Source: Candidatus Dadabacteria bacterium
GTDB lineage: Bacteria; Desulfobacterota_D; UBA1144; Nemesobacterales; Nemesobacteraceae
DNA length: 64,000 bases
Direction of reading: 5' to 3'
Assembly: GCA_009837205.1 (NCBI GenBank)
Contig: VXTZ01000022.1
Span: forward strand, 1 to 64,000
The notes under the pieces are model-generated. The model did no database searches and was not told the origin of the DNA. It saw only the letters and a program-made list of their open reading frames with translations. A program made the position numbers and the translations under genes. Below are positions 58,651 to 62,854 of the stretch, one piece after another (positions within the stretch are counted from its first letter, which is position 1; each line of letters starts with the position of its first letter).

Positions 58651-60243
58651 TTGGCATTCGATACCATAAAAAACAGACAGGGCCTTCTCACTAAAGCCCT
58701 GCTTCTTCTGCTCGCCCTTACCTTCGTTATCGGCTTCGGATACGTGGGAGGAATAAGCATAGGAGGGAGAGGCCCCAGCGGCGGAGCCGCGGTAGAGGTA
58801 AACGGGGACAAGGTTTCCCTCGCAGAGTTCTATAATCTCAGGGACTCGATGCTTGACCGCCTGCGCCGCAGCGACCAGGAGATCTCGGACGAGCTTTTCG
58901 AATACGTGAATTTTTCCGTGATCGACTCGCTGGTTAACAAGAAGCTTCTCGCCCAGAAGGCCGAGGAACTGGGGATCAAGGTAAGCCAGGAGGAGCTTTC
59001 AGACGCAATAAGAAACGATCCGGGGTTCCAGGTGGACGGCGCTTTCGTGGGGTTTGAACGCTACCGGGACTTTATTTCAAGGGGACTTAACCGCACCGTG
59101 AAGGATTTCGAGGATTCCTACAGGGAGGATCTCCTTGTGGAGAAGCTCGTTTCAGTTCTTGACAGTTCCGTAACGGCAAGCGACGAGGAGCTTTTAAGCA
59201 TCTACAGGACGCGCGAGGAGAAAATCGACCTTCACTACGTCTCGTTTGCGGCCCGGGATTACCTTGAGGGCCAGAAACCGAGCGAAGAGGAAATCGCCCG
59301 GTATTACAGAAAAAACACCGATCTTTTCTGGGAGCCGGAGAAACGCGCGGCGCGCTACGTAAAACTCACTCCCGGGGATTTCACCGAGGATGCCGAGGTT
59401 TCCGACGAGGAAATCGAGGCCTACTACACTACTTACCCGGAGGAATTTCTTTCCAAAGGGACCCCGAAACCATTTGACGACGTAAAGGGGGAGATAAAAA
59501 AGCAGCTTGTAGAGGGCAAATCAAAGCTTCTCTACAACCAGTTCCTTGAGGAGTTTCTCCGGAAAAGACGTTCCTTCTCAGACCTTCTTTCCGAAAAAAG
59601 CTCGCTTGAGGTGAAAGAAACCGCGGAGTTTACTCTCGGAGGCGCGGGCGGAGACGTCCCCGGCGCCATAAGAAGAGAGGCCTTTTCTGTAAAGAAAAAG
59701 AAGCTTTCAAACGTGGTACTTCGGGATTTCACCTGGTTTTTCGAGGTAACCCGGGTTCAATCCTCGAAGCGGTCGGGAATTGAGTCCGTGCGCGGGGAGA
59801 TTACCGAGGCCTTAAAAAGGGAAAAGGGCATCGATCGGGCCAGGGAATCCGCCGGGAACAGTCTCGCGAAAATAACCGCCTCGGGCAAAGGTTTCTCCGG
59901 GGTGACCAAGTCCATGGGTCTTTCGGTGGAGCGCACCGGTTTTTTCTCAAGGTCCGAGGATCCTCTGGACGTCGAATCGGGGGATTTCATTTCAGATGTA
60001 TTCGGGCTGAGAAGCAACCGTCCTACCCCCAATCGTGTTTACAAGTCGGGGGAGACTTTCTACATAGTGTCGCTTGCGAAGACAAAGCCCGCCGACAGCG
60101 GGTACTTCGGGATCGAGAAGGATTCTCTTAGGCGCCAGGAGGTCTCGTTGCGAAAGATGCTTGTGGTTGAACGCCTGCTTGAGAACCTCAGAGAAAGCTC
60201 CAAGATCTCACCCAACAAGAACCTTCTTTCCCAAGGAGGATAA
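58651..60243 (+). CDS. PpiD/SurA-like periplasmic peptidyl-prolyl isomerase
   Basis: 530 aa: one N-terminal membrane anchor (about 12-34, LTKALLLLLALTFVIGFGYV), a SurA_N-type chaperone domain (about 50-180, ELFEYVNFSVIDSLVNKKLL), then PPIase-like modules (RREAFSVKKKKLSNVV near 340). Layout and length resemble PpiD, which helps fold outer-membrane proteins. The parvulin core is diverged, so enzymatic activity is uncertain. The TTG start at 58651 has AAGGA 8 nt upstream; cofD is divergent. Confidence 0.85.
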   Translation: MAFDTIKNRQGLLTKALLLLLALTFVIGFGYVGGISIGGRGPSGGAAVEVNGDKVSLAEFYNLRDSMLDRLRRSDQEISDELFEYVNFSVIDSLVNKKLLAQKAEELGIKVSQEELSDAIRNDPGFQVDGAFVGFERYRDFISRGLNRTVKDFEDSYREDLLVEKLVSVLDSSVTASDEELLSIYRTREEKIDLHYVSFAARDYLEGQKPSEEEIARYYRKNTDLFWEPEKRAARYVKLTPGDFTEDAEVSDEEIEAYYTTYPEEFLSKGTPKPFDDVKGEIKKQLVEGKSKLLYNQFLEEFLRKRRSFSDLLSEKSSLEVKETAEFTLGGAGGDVPGAIRREAFSVKKKKLSNVVLRDFTWFFEVTRVQSSKRSGIESVRGEITEALKREKGIDRARESAGNSLAKITASGKGFSGVTKSMGLSVERTGFFSRSEDPLDVESGDFISDVFGLRSNRPTPNRVYKSGETFYIVSLAKTKPADSGYFGIEKDSLRRQEVSLRKMLVVERLLENLRESSKISPNKNLLSQGG

Positions 60244-60571
60244 TTCCCCGGGAAGTTTTCTTCCGAACGAGATGTAAATCCGGTATACTAAATCCTTAGT
60301 ATTTTACTGTAGGCCTACCGTTATAATTCATGATAGTGAACCGCTGTCGAAGGAGAGCGAGTAGCTTCCCAGATCCGGTCGCGTGCTAGGAAAAACGGAT
60401 CAAGAAACTTCAGATGAAAAGACAAATTTCTTTGGGGCCGTCTTTTTCCTGAACTTTCGCTGAACTCTTTAAGCCGATTTTTTATCATGGAGTTCCGGGA
60501 TTATCGAAATCATTTTTTTGCGGTCACCGCCTCCTTCCATAAGATTTTTTTATTTTCTCTGAGAAAAAAAA
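60244..60571. other. Gap between the PpiD-like gene and the retron locus
   Basis: No gene. It holds several short palindromes: TACTAA-ATCC-TTAGTA (60285-60300), GTAGGCCTAC (60311-60320), and an interrupted long inverted repeat from GGAAAAACGG (near 60389) to CCGTCTTTTTCC (near 60439). TTTTCTC-T-GAGAAAA lies just before the retron promoter. Some may be terminators; none has a clean stem plus T-run. Confidence 0.4.
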
Positions 60572-60599
60572 TTGACTTTTAGCAAATATCGTATAGCAT
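60572..60599 (+). promoter_or_regulatory. Promoter of the retron locus
   Basis: TTGACT (60572-60577), 16 nt, TAGCAT (60594-60599). It reads into the structured non-coding region and the three genes behind it. Confidence 0.4.
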
Positions 60600-60609
60600 T
60601 TAATCTTAA

Positions 60610-60626
60610 CTGAACTAATAGTTCAG
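60610..60626. promoter_or_regulatory. Operator-like palindrome in the retron leader
   Basis: CTGAACTA-A-TAGTTCAG is a perfect 8-bp inverted repeat around one base, lying just after the -10 of the retron promoter. It is the size and place expected for a Cro/CI-type repressor; the HTH gene at 61227 is the natural candidate. Confidence 0.5.
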
Positions 60627-60649
60627 ACGTTCTTTGACAACACCTTCAG

Positions 60650-60895
60650 GATTGGACTCGTCGAAGACCAAGCTTTTAGCTTGGTCGATGCGTACGCATC
60701 TTAACAGAAGCAGATGGCGAGGGTAGAGGGATCTTCATCTTTGAAACTTGTAGAAGATAGGTTCTCTCCCGGATCGTGTTATACCGGCGTTTAGGCGTGT
60801 GAGCCCTTGAGACCTGTGGAAGTATAGTTCGCATGATAGTATGCGACTGAAATAAGAGGATTGCGGAATTCGCTGTGTTTTTTTTCGGTCCAATC
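60650..60895 (+). ncRNA. Candidate retron msr-msd RNA
   Basis: The region ahead of the retron genes has the layout of a retron RNA. GATTGGAC (60650-60657) pairs with GTCCAATC (60888-60895), extended by CG/CG, as a possible a1/a2 helix. Inside are a 9-bp hairpin GACCAAGCT-TTT-AGCTTGGTC (60666-60686), a perfect palindrome GATGCGTACGCATC (60687-60700), and a long interrupted hairpin from about 60719 to 60770 with ATCTTC/GAAGAT at its core (msd-like). A further TCGCAT-GATAGT-ATGCGA hairpin is at 60829-60846. The boundaries and the branching G are not fixed; the a1/a2 helix is short. Confidence 0.45.
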
Positions 60896-60949
60896 GCATG
60901 GCGACTGGGCGAGAATGCCCGAAAAATTTTGCCCAAGGAGGTGAGTAAA

Positions 60950-61192
60950 ATGCTTTTAGATAAGCAGTTGTTAAAGAAGATGCTGAATACTCTCATAGAG
61001 CTAAAGGCGTCTATCCGTAACACAGCGGATTCCAGCGTTAATATCCGACTGGATGAGGTTATAGGCCAACTCCGGTCCATGATAGAAGGCAAAGAGCCTG
61101 AAGACGCGAACAAGATCTTGAATGGTCTTGGCAAGTTTTTGAAGATGCTACTAAGCATTGAGGCTTTGATAAGTTTCCTGTCTGATGATTAA
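60950..61192 (+). CDS. Unrecognised 80-aa protein of the retron operon
   Basis: First protein of the retron operon. A very strong ribosome site (AAGGAGGTGA, 60935-60944) sets the ATG at 60950; a reading from 60875 would start inside the RNA region. 80 aa, helical, with LLKKMLNTLIELKASIRNTA and a C-terminal amphipathic helix ILNGLGKFLKMLLSIEALIS that could insert into or lie on a membrane. No family recognised. It could be the effector or an RNA/RT-binding accessory. It ends as the HTH frame begins. Confidence 0.65.
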   Translation: MLLDKQLLKKMLNTLIELKASIRNTADSSVNIRLDEVIGQLRSMIEGKEPEDANKILNGLGKFLKMLLSIEALISFLSDD

Positions 61193-61226
61193 CGCAACAA
61201 TCCTTTTTATTTTTTACAGCCTGATC

Positions 61227-61517
61227 ATGAATCTTGGTGCAACTATAAAACAGTGTCGGAGTTTGCGTAAGATGACTCAGTCTCAGCTGGCCGATGCAGC
61301 CGGTCTGTCTGTTTCTCATCTTTGCCTTCTGGAAAAAAACGAGCGTCAGCCCAGTATTTCAGCTATAGAGTCAATAGCGCGAACTCTGGAAATACCTCTA
61401 AGCGTTCTTATTTTCTTGGCTGCGGAAAAAGAAGAAGTCCCCGAGTTAACAGCAAAGCATATTGAAGACCTGTCAAGACACATAATAGGTTTAATGAAAT
61501 TACATGCCCAGAGATAG
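61227..61517 (+). CDS. Cro/CI-type HTH regulator of the retron operon
   Basis: A 96-aa Xre-family protein: NLGATIKQCRSLRKMTQSQL, then SVSHLCLLEKNERQPSISAI (HTH about 6-60), with a short helical tail. An upstream ATG at 61185 would add 14 hydrophobic residues and overlap the previous gene; the family begins at the ATG chosen. The gene overlaps the RT gene by 14 nt, so both are made together. Retrons with a small HTH protein are known; here it likely binds the palindrome at 60610 and/or is the toxic or regulatory partner of the RT-msDNA. Confidence 0.85.
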   Translation: MNLGATIKQCRSLRKMTQSQLADAAGLSVSHLCLLEKNERQPSISAIESIARTLEIPLSVLIFLAAEKEEVPELTAKHIEDLSRHIIGLMKLHAQR

Positions 61518-62466
61518 ACATCCCGTTATAAACATTTCCCCTATCGCTAAGGTTTCCTCTCTGGCTTCATTACTTTCGATCAAGGAATCCGATTTGCTGT
61601 ATATTGCCGCAAATGTGGATCGGTTTCACAGGCCGGGGAAGGAGCTTAAAAAAAGAAACGGGGAACCACGGCAAACCCATGACGCGGAGCAACGGCTGAA
61701 AATCATACATGGGAGAATTAACAACCGAATACTTAAAAAAGTCGATTACCCATACTATTTACAGGGTGGAATAGCAGACAAAAAACGGTCTCGAGGCTGT
61801 CGTGCTAACGCCATTATTCATTCCAGAAAGAAGTTGATTATCACTGAGGATATAAAGGATTTTTTCCCCTGTACAAGCAAAAGAATTGTTAAAGGAATTT
61901 GGCAATACTGCTTCCGATTTCATCCCGAAATAGCCGATATCCTGACCCGTCTGACCATCTACCAGAACCAACTCCCCCAAGGCTGGAAAACCAGTTCATA
62001 CTTGGCGAACTTAGTATTTTGGGACAAAGAACCGGATTTGGTGTCTTTACTTGAGCAACGGGGTTATTCCTACAGCCGTTATATGGACGACATTACCGTA
62101 TCAAGCGGGCATTATATAAACAACCACCAAAAGAACTACATAATATCAAAAGTTTACGAAATGCTTTTTTCCAAAGGGTTCGCACCAAAGCGCAGCAAGC
62201 ATGAAATAGTCAGTCAGAGTCAGCGAATGGATATTACGGGCTTGGTGGTAAACAGGAAAAATCCGACGGTCTTAAAGAGCAAACGCAGGGGAGTGCGAGT
62301 AGGCGTATTCAAACTGGAGGAACTGCCAATAAATAATCGTTCAGATGCTGATTATCGTGAATGCTGGGAGCATTTGTCTGGATTGGTAAGTTATATAAGC
62401 GCTTACCATCCTAAAGAAGGTAAAAAGCTACGTGCTCGGTTACGTAATATAAAGCCGAATAGGTAG
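61504..62466 (+). CDS. Retron-type reverse transcriptase
   Basis: 320 aa, a compact RT without maturase, endonuclease or N-terminal extension domains. Landmarks: NAIIH at 102-106 (retron NAxxH, region X), EDIKDFFP with Asp116 (motif A), LPQG at 157-160, RYMDD at 192-196 with catalytic Asp195-Asp196, and DITGLVVN with ITG at 244-246 (retron VTG, region Y), followed by a thumb-like C-terminus. It makes msDNA from the adjacent structured RNA. The ATG at 61504 overlaps the HTH gene. Codon use is more AT-rich than the neighbours, in keeping with transfer. Confidence 0.92.
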   Translation: MPRDRHPVINISPIAKVSSLASLLSIKESDLLYIAANVDRFHRPGKELKKRNGEPRQTHDAEQRLKIIHGRINNRILKKVDYPYYLQGGIADKKRSRGCRANAIIHSRKKLIITEDIKDFFPCTSKRIVKGIWQYCFRFHPEIADILTRLTIYQNQLPQGWKTSSYLANLVFWDKEPDLVSLLEQRGYSYSRYMDDITVSSGHYINNHQKNYIISKVYEMLFSKGFAPKRSKHEIVSQSQRMDITGLVVNRKNPTVLKSKRRGVRVGVFKLEELPINNRSDADYRECWEHLSGLVSYISAYHPKEGKKLRARLRNIKPNR

Positions 62467-62854
62467 TATCTGCCAGAAGACTCTGTTTTCCTCCGAATTA
62501 TTTTAGGGCATAATCAGCAGCAACTACCTTTCCTGCTATCTGTTTATGAATCAACATACTGCGTTCCTTTGTTTTTAACCTAGTACACAGCAATTAACTG
62601 TTCCCACCGGGAAGTTGTAAATCCTCTAGATATTGTGGTATAATTCAAACTGACCGGAAGGCCTTGATCGATAAGGAATCTTTTTCACGTACTGCCGAAA
62701 GCATCATCCCGGCAGCTTTCTTCAAGATTCTGGCCCTGTCAGGGCTTCTATAATACGCATGCGGGAGCTTTAACTTTCCCGGTTACGGCGAGGGGTTTGC
62801 GTAAAACGGGCGGCGGCGCGCGTGAACGCAGCGATGCCGGGCCGCGATTCTCCC
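62467..62854. other. 388-bp gap between the RT gene and smc
   Basis: No gene. It contains TATAAT boxes at 62637 (with TTGTAA 18 nt upstream) and at 62749-62754, either of which could drive smc. A short hairpin GCCCT-GTC-AGGGC lies near 62733. No clear terminator follows the RT gene. Confidence 0.4.

Follow-up and report, generated by a model that had tools for sequence, protein, structure and literature searches.

The window, a stretch of 64,000 nucleotides, carries on its forward strand a retron in which a small protein (SP), a helix-turn-helix (HTH) protein and a reverse transcriptase (RT) are encoded in that order behind a structured leader. We identify the locus as a type VI retron, complete and recently acquired, in a Dadabacterium. 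The host genome belongs to Candidatus Dadabacteria, and the locus occurs also in a second genome, with 97% identity in the RT. The islet and its genes are as follows.

60251–62600, no strand: inserted retron islet of 2.35 kb, GC content 0.42 against 0.53 in the flanks (empty site in congeners; composition)
60950–61192, + strand: SP, small protein of 80 residues, likely effector (PADLOC SP_VI, PDLC02971, E = 1.4e-10; AF2 model; alignment)
61227–61517, + strand: HTH (Cro/CI/XRE) DNA-binding protein, likely autorepressor (PADLOC HTH_VI, E = 3.6e-24; Pfam HTH_3, 1.7e-10)
61504–62466, + strand: retron RT of 320 residues (PADLOC RT_VI, E = 2.6e-72; RT_V, 7.2e-68; tree)

Gene set, insertion site and relatives

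RT_VI, an HTH protein and a small protein in a single operon constitute the criterion for type VI, and this combination is found at the locus. The same set, in which the RT is accompanied by a DNA-binding protein and a small auxiliary protein, is given for type VI in PMC8541194, which cites Mestre et al. 2020, and it is by way of this citing paper that the definition is used here. The gene set is catalogued already, whereas the RNA logic described below appears to be new. The initial annotation had laid out the RT, the Cro/CI HTH gene and the 80-residue gene behind a structured leader just as we find them; its view that the 80-residue gene was unrecognised does not hold, as this is the SP_VI of type VI retrons. 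The genes within 60251–62600 are SP, HTH and RT only, and the cold-shock-domain effector that would mark a type V retron was not found there.

The RT carries NAIIH at residue 102 (NAxxH), YMDD at 193 (YxDD) and ITG at 244 ([VI]TG), at the places previously assigned to them. Retron families matched it with E values of 1e-37 (NCBIfam) to 1e-72, compared to 4.5e-4 for the NCBIfam group II intron RT, the DGR family was absent from its profile match lists, and the closest solved structures are retron RTs. The retron identity was therefore called correctly, and neither a group II intron nor a DGR, the alternatives named at the time, fits the protein. The HTH gene, with its stop at 61517, shares 14 bases with the start of the RT gene, which makes the proposed translational coupling plausible. 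A start for the HTH gene at 61185 is disfavoured; 61227 (MNLG...) is the probable one and matches homologues.

The insertion can be seen directly in the congeneric genomes. In 12 of 14 the site is empty, with the equivalents of window positions ~60250 and ~62601 joined directly, and the two carriers have the retron at one site. The range of type VI now includes a Dadabacterium. The flanking genes, named by inspection of their reading frames, are a peptidyl-prolyl-isomerase-like gene and smc, and the insert contains the retron alone. Contamination of the genome bin as a source of the islet was ruled out by the conserved synteny around it in two genomes. An imperfect repeat, TTCCC(ga)CCGGGAAGTT, is present at both ends (60236–60262 and 62590–62620), and there is no integrase inside. 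Some 300 bases at 60260–60560, within the islet and upstream of the retron promoter, are unexplained sequence.

Searches of plasmids, viral contigs and genomes yielded 16 further SP-HTH-RT loci and two SP-RT-only loci, and an RT tree was built with these relatives. Together with three further HTH-less loci they form one clade (support 98/94), in which the window RT groups with the 16 other SP-HTH-RT loci. The order RNA-SP-HTH-RT, whose conservation had been proposed as a check on the locus, is kept in 17 loci. The clade adjoins more HTH-less loci with a small upstream reading frame and the type V (cold-shock) retrons, among them the Se72-like elements of small enterobacterial plasmids, which share the hairpin and boxA leader described below but have their cold-shock protein effector downstream of the RT and no HTH gene beside it. 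The type VI RTs of P2 phages are placed on another branch (100/96). Since the present clade is thus separate from P2-phage members with the same gene set, type VI as defined by gene content looks polyphyletic on this tree.

Two further observations concern the RT relatives. Across window positions 60566–62466, nucleotide identity to locus L003 is 98% in the RT gene but only 88–91% in the small-protein and HTH genes, with dS of 0.03 in the former and 0.24–0.36 in the latter; from this contrast the cassette looks to have recombined between effector and RT modules. Locus L069, on a viral contig and on a long branch of the tree, has a retron-like RT preceded by a 201-residue protein in which a helical N-terminal part is joined to an HTH domain, perhaps a fusion of small protein and HTH protein.

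The 80-residue reading frame is real, as judged from homologues that occupy the equivalent position in 18 other loci and from a dN/dS of about 0.40 against the relative with the 97% identical RT. The frame starts behind AAGGAGGTG. Helices are predicted at residues 5–22, 28–45 and 53–79 (AF2 mean pLDDT 75), the last being hydrophobic, and the amphipathic helix noted previously is borne out by the C-terminal 18-mer, which is both hydrophobic and amphipathic (H 0.90, muH 0.41). In the alignment of homologues the character of this helix is conserved but its sequence is not, and it lies mostly under the usual transmembrane threshold. SP gave no credible match in Pfam, NCBIfam or PHROGs; in the PDB, a sequence search returned only designed helices and chance matches and a fold search nothing with E < 0.9. 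A tblastn search in plasmids found no SP although the RT-anchored search recovers it there, implying that the protein diverges too fast for direct search.

Promoter, putative operator and leader RNA

The region upstream of SP was compared among 19 orthologous leaders, from the 17 HTH-bearing loci and from the HTH-less loci L081 and L090. It folds better than shuffled sequence (z = −2.6, with 1 of 100 shuffles equally good), as expected for the structured non-coding leader first described, and an Rfam search of the locus gave no match. The elements of its 5′ part are listed below.

60572–60599, + strand: sigma-70-like promoter, TTGACT – 16 nt – TAGCAT (consensus scan; relatives arranged alike)
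60572–60586, + strand: putative HTH operator TTGACTTTTAGCAAA, consensus TTGACTnnnAGTCAA, 10 of 12 consensus positions, its left half being the −35 box
60610–60626, + strand: 5′ RNA hairpin CUGAACU-AAU-AGUUCAG, boxB-like (covariation in 19 loci)
60629–60637, + strand: boxA-like element GUUCUUUGA (KGYTCTTTRA at the same place in relatives)

In HTH-bearing loci the near-palindrome TTGACTnnnAGTCAA (or TTCACT...AGTGAA) coincides with the −35 box or lies immediately 5′ of it. This putative operator scores 9–12 of 12 positions in all 17 of them, and at least 10 in 16, but only 7–8 in the HTH-less L081 and L090; among the sister HTH-less loci 1 of 11 scores 10, at a different place. Because the motif at the cassette's own promoter accompanies the HTH gene, the HTH protein is probably an autorepressor, which would explain why the cassette has an HTH gene. 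The 5′ palindrome of the hairpin was also considered as the operator and rejected: it persists without HTH, its centre is of 3 or 4 nucleotides, and where its cells are not Watson-Crick pairs they are nearly always G-U. The conserved TTGACTnnnAGTCAA at the promoter is the better candidate.

These data bear on an alternative in which the HTH protein itself is the effector or sensor, held by msDNA and switching transcription upon release, with SP as an accessory. The HTH gene does adjoin and overlap the RT gene, and its dN/dS of 0.09 shows strong conservation. However, L081, L090 and L030–L040 lack it and still have the RNA, a small reading frame and an RT, and the putative operator, where the gene exists, points to autorepression. 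We regard this alternative as very improbable. The HTH gene is missing at several positions in the tree while a small reading frame with a hydrophobic C-terminus stays, as it does in the HTH-less loci inspected; hence the small protein is, from gene content, the likelier effector. The suggestion in the initial annotation that it may be the effector thus stands, SP being the best candidate.

The 5′ hairpin lies at the predicted transcript start in 19 of 19 loci, with 99.2% of its cells paired and double changes in all seven base pairs. None of 500 shuffles matched its percentage paired or its covariation score, and it accommodates G-U pairs and loops of 3 or 4 nucleotides. The boxA that follows is degenerate in L013 and L089. 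The combination occurs once in the 64-kb window. The HTH-less sister clade has it as well, as do type V plasmid retrons; it was looked for and not found in the P2-phage members and in four more distant RT loci. In ribosomal RNA leaders the order is likewise hairpin then boxA, and the 16S leader of the host has TCTTTGAAAA at a fixed place. We read the hairpin and boxA as an antitermination leader of the rRNA type, which would account for an operon being headed by a long, structured RNA that is not translated. In the type V loci L016 and L018, on enterobacterial plasmids of 4–8 kb, hairpin and boxA lie about 450 bases before the RT.

The retron RNA and its neighbouring elements follow.

60641–60647, + strand: anti-Shine-Dalgarno (antiSD) segment CACCUUC, between boxA and a1 (pairs with 60937–60943)
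60650–60657, + strand: a1, GAUUGGAC (pairs with a2)
60666–60700, + strand: msr, hairpins 60666–60686 and 60687–60700 (MFE fold)
60843–60849, + strand: direct-repeat copy 1 (GCGACTG), in the predicted msd (covarying direct repeat)
60881–60888, + strand: predicted msd 3′ end UUUUUCGG, expected start of reverse transcription (pairs with 60919–60926)
60888–60895, + strand: a2, GUCCAAUC (pairs with a1)
60901–60907, + strand: direct-repeat copy 2 (GCGACTG), in the small-protein leader just after a2 (12–19 nt after CGG in 19 of 19 loci)
60907–60920, + strand: leader hairpin GGGC-GAGAAU-GCCC (consensus fold of 19 loci; weak in L003)
60919–60926, + strand: CCGAAAAA, partner of the msd 3′ end (cognate pairing)
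60935–60943, + strand: Shine-Dalgarno (SD) sequence AAGGAGGUG of the small-protein gene (predicted unpaired probability in the window 0.22 with the full leader and 0.82 when the leader begins at a2)

The a1/a2 pairing expected of a retron is present and is specific to each locus, since none of 20,000 permutations equalled the difference between cognate and non-cognate pairs in the 19 loci. In the msr, the A60667-U60685 pair of the window is replaced by G-C in L003. The msd 3′ end (UUUCGG) pairs with the segment just before the SP ribosome site, again in a cognate manner (0 of 20,000 permutations). This predicted helix crosses a1/a2 and is therefore a pseudoknot or an alternative fold.

Contacts around the small-protein ribosome site

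The antiSD segment shows locus-specific pairing with the SD of the SP gene. After removal of near-copies the mean duplex energy was −11.2 for cognate and −7.4 for swapped combinations (z = −6.3, 0 of 50,000 permutations), and six control segments tested in the same way gave no signal. The RNA contacts were first spotted by eye on this main test set and relatedness among loci is incompletely removed in the permutations, so the sister clade, at 7–9 loci, is the sole independent set; in seven HTH-less sister loci from outside the discovery set, 5 of 5040 permutations reached the observed antiSD × SD value (p ~0.001). The pairing is weak in L013 and L028. Fold predictions agree in direction, the SD being unpaired with a mean of 0.19 in the full leader compared to 0.49 in the leader from a2 on (p = 2e-5), though removal of the 5′ strand alone freed the SD in only some loci. 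Collectively, these comparisons suggest that the retron RNA itself controls the timing of production of the likely toxin. The predicted occlusion of the ribosome site may, however, be merely ordinary autoregulation.

A second feature is a direct repeat that flanks a2. Each locus has a word of 6–10 nucleotides of which copy 1 lies 46–77 nt before the end of CGG and copy 2 lies 12–19 nt after it. The word varies among loci (TCGACTGG, ACGGGGCTTC, TGGAGGGG, GGGACAGGT) and the copies agree within each, giving a covariation of z = 6.6 (0 of 50,000 permutations; 102 of 50,000 in the sister set), with some of the words picked by eye at the conserved position. The reverse-complement control was null, showing no covariation with the msd, and the reversed control was weak. 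Four RNA segments were examined for a third strand pairing with the repeat and none gave a significant signal. The repeat of the window is just 7 nt long and scores no higher than a second match of the same length, and is thus weaker here than in other loci. Since DNA made from the msd should be able to pair with copy 2, the repeat gives rise to the idea that msDNA contacts the small-protein leader.

The repeat could instead reflect strand transfer, in which the RT jumps from copy 1 to copy 2 and makes repeated cDNA, or a pair of protein-binding sites, rather than antisense contact between msDNA and leader. It flanks the initiation point at a roughly constant spacing, as strand transfer would have it, but the length of the unit is often not divisible by three, which leaves no continuous reading frame of the kind seen in DRT2. 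A neo-like reading frame across repeated cDNA was rejected for this same reason. We consider this account of the repeat improbable; it touches the repeat alone and is compatible with the other steps of the explanation that we prefer.

More serious competition comes from an ordinary protein-gated retron, in which the RT-msDNA complex binds and neutralises SP while the helices around the start codon set the level of expression or shape the RNA. This is how retrons are usually described, with RT, ncRNA and RT-DNA sequestering an effector (PMC12548924), and the additional conserved two-helix part at the N-terminus of SP could bind the RT. Such a mechanism does not, however, predict covariation between antiSD and SD or a covarying repeat flanking a2, and we judge it rather unlikely.

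Proposed mechanism and related systems

Comparative sequence analysis supports the gene set, the islet, the hairpin and boxA, a1/a2, the antiSD-SD pairing, the covarying repeat and the operator, and from these we infer translational gating, a part for msDNA in it, the toxicity of SP and the trigger. Our preferred explanation, which we regard as probable, is a type VI retron with an HTH-repressed promoter, a boxA leader and an SP effector gated at translation by the retron RNA. The HTH protein would repress the single promoter at the operator overlapping the −35 box. The one transcript would run hairpin, boxA, antiSD, a1, msr, msd, a2, leader hairpin, SP, HTH and RT, and its boxA leader would recruit NusB/S10 so that transcription continues through the long, structured and untranslated region. 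The RT would use a1/a2 to prime msDNA, and the antiSD helix would hide the SP ribosome site, such that little effector is made while the RNA, or RNA-msDNA complex, is folded. Infection would damage the RNA or complex and free the ribosome site, and the SP then made, which carries a hydrophobic C-terminal helix, would harm the cell, probably at the membrane, as abortive infection.

A more specific version, which we put forward tentatively, is that the template RNA next to a1 hides the effector ribosome site and that msDNA on the a2-side repeat clamps the effector mRNA until removal by the phage. Were this so, the retron would be an RNA/DNA-controlled toxin and not a protein-sequestered one. How sensing is coupled to killing is unknown for most retron types (PMC13405049), and no functional study of type VI retrons was found in the literature searched. 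The covarying contacts between RNA and ribosome site provide a specific model, which a handful of point mutations could test.

The small toxins of type I toxin-antitoxin systems also have a hydrophobic helix and a ribosome site occluded by RNA structure. At the present locus the predicted occlusion would be in cis, by the template RNA of the RT, rather than by a separate antisense RNA. The closest likeness is to the type VI retrons of Mestre et al. 2020, as represented in the citing account and in PADLOC, which have the same three genes in the same order and a leader RNA. Type VI-like retroelements of Peduovirinae and Mu-like prophages (PMC8541194) also combine a small reading frame with a hydrophobic C-terminus, an XRE gene and a retron RT; they differ in that the RT is ~26% identical and on a separate branch, the small proteins are of ~50 residues and basic, and the boxA leader was not found.

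In Shewanella phage MuM16-1 (L008), the HTH gene is immediately preceded by an unannotated 48-residue reading frame, at 1944–2090, that is similar to type VI small proteins; the candidate named in print is a gene on the other strand (PMC8541194). The HTH-less loci L030–L040, L091, L092 and L017 have a small reading frame ending in a hydrophobic helix directly upstream of the RT, and many of them carry GTCTGGCG twice in the leader.
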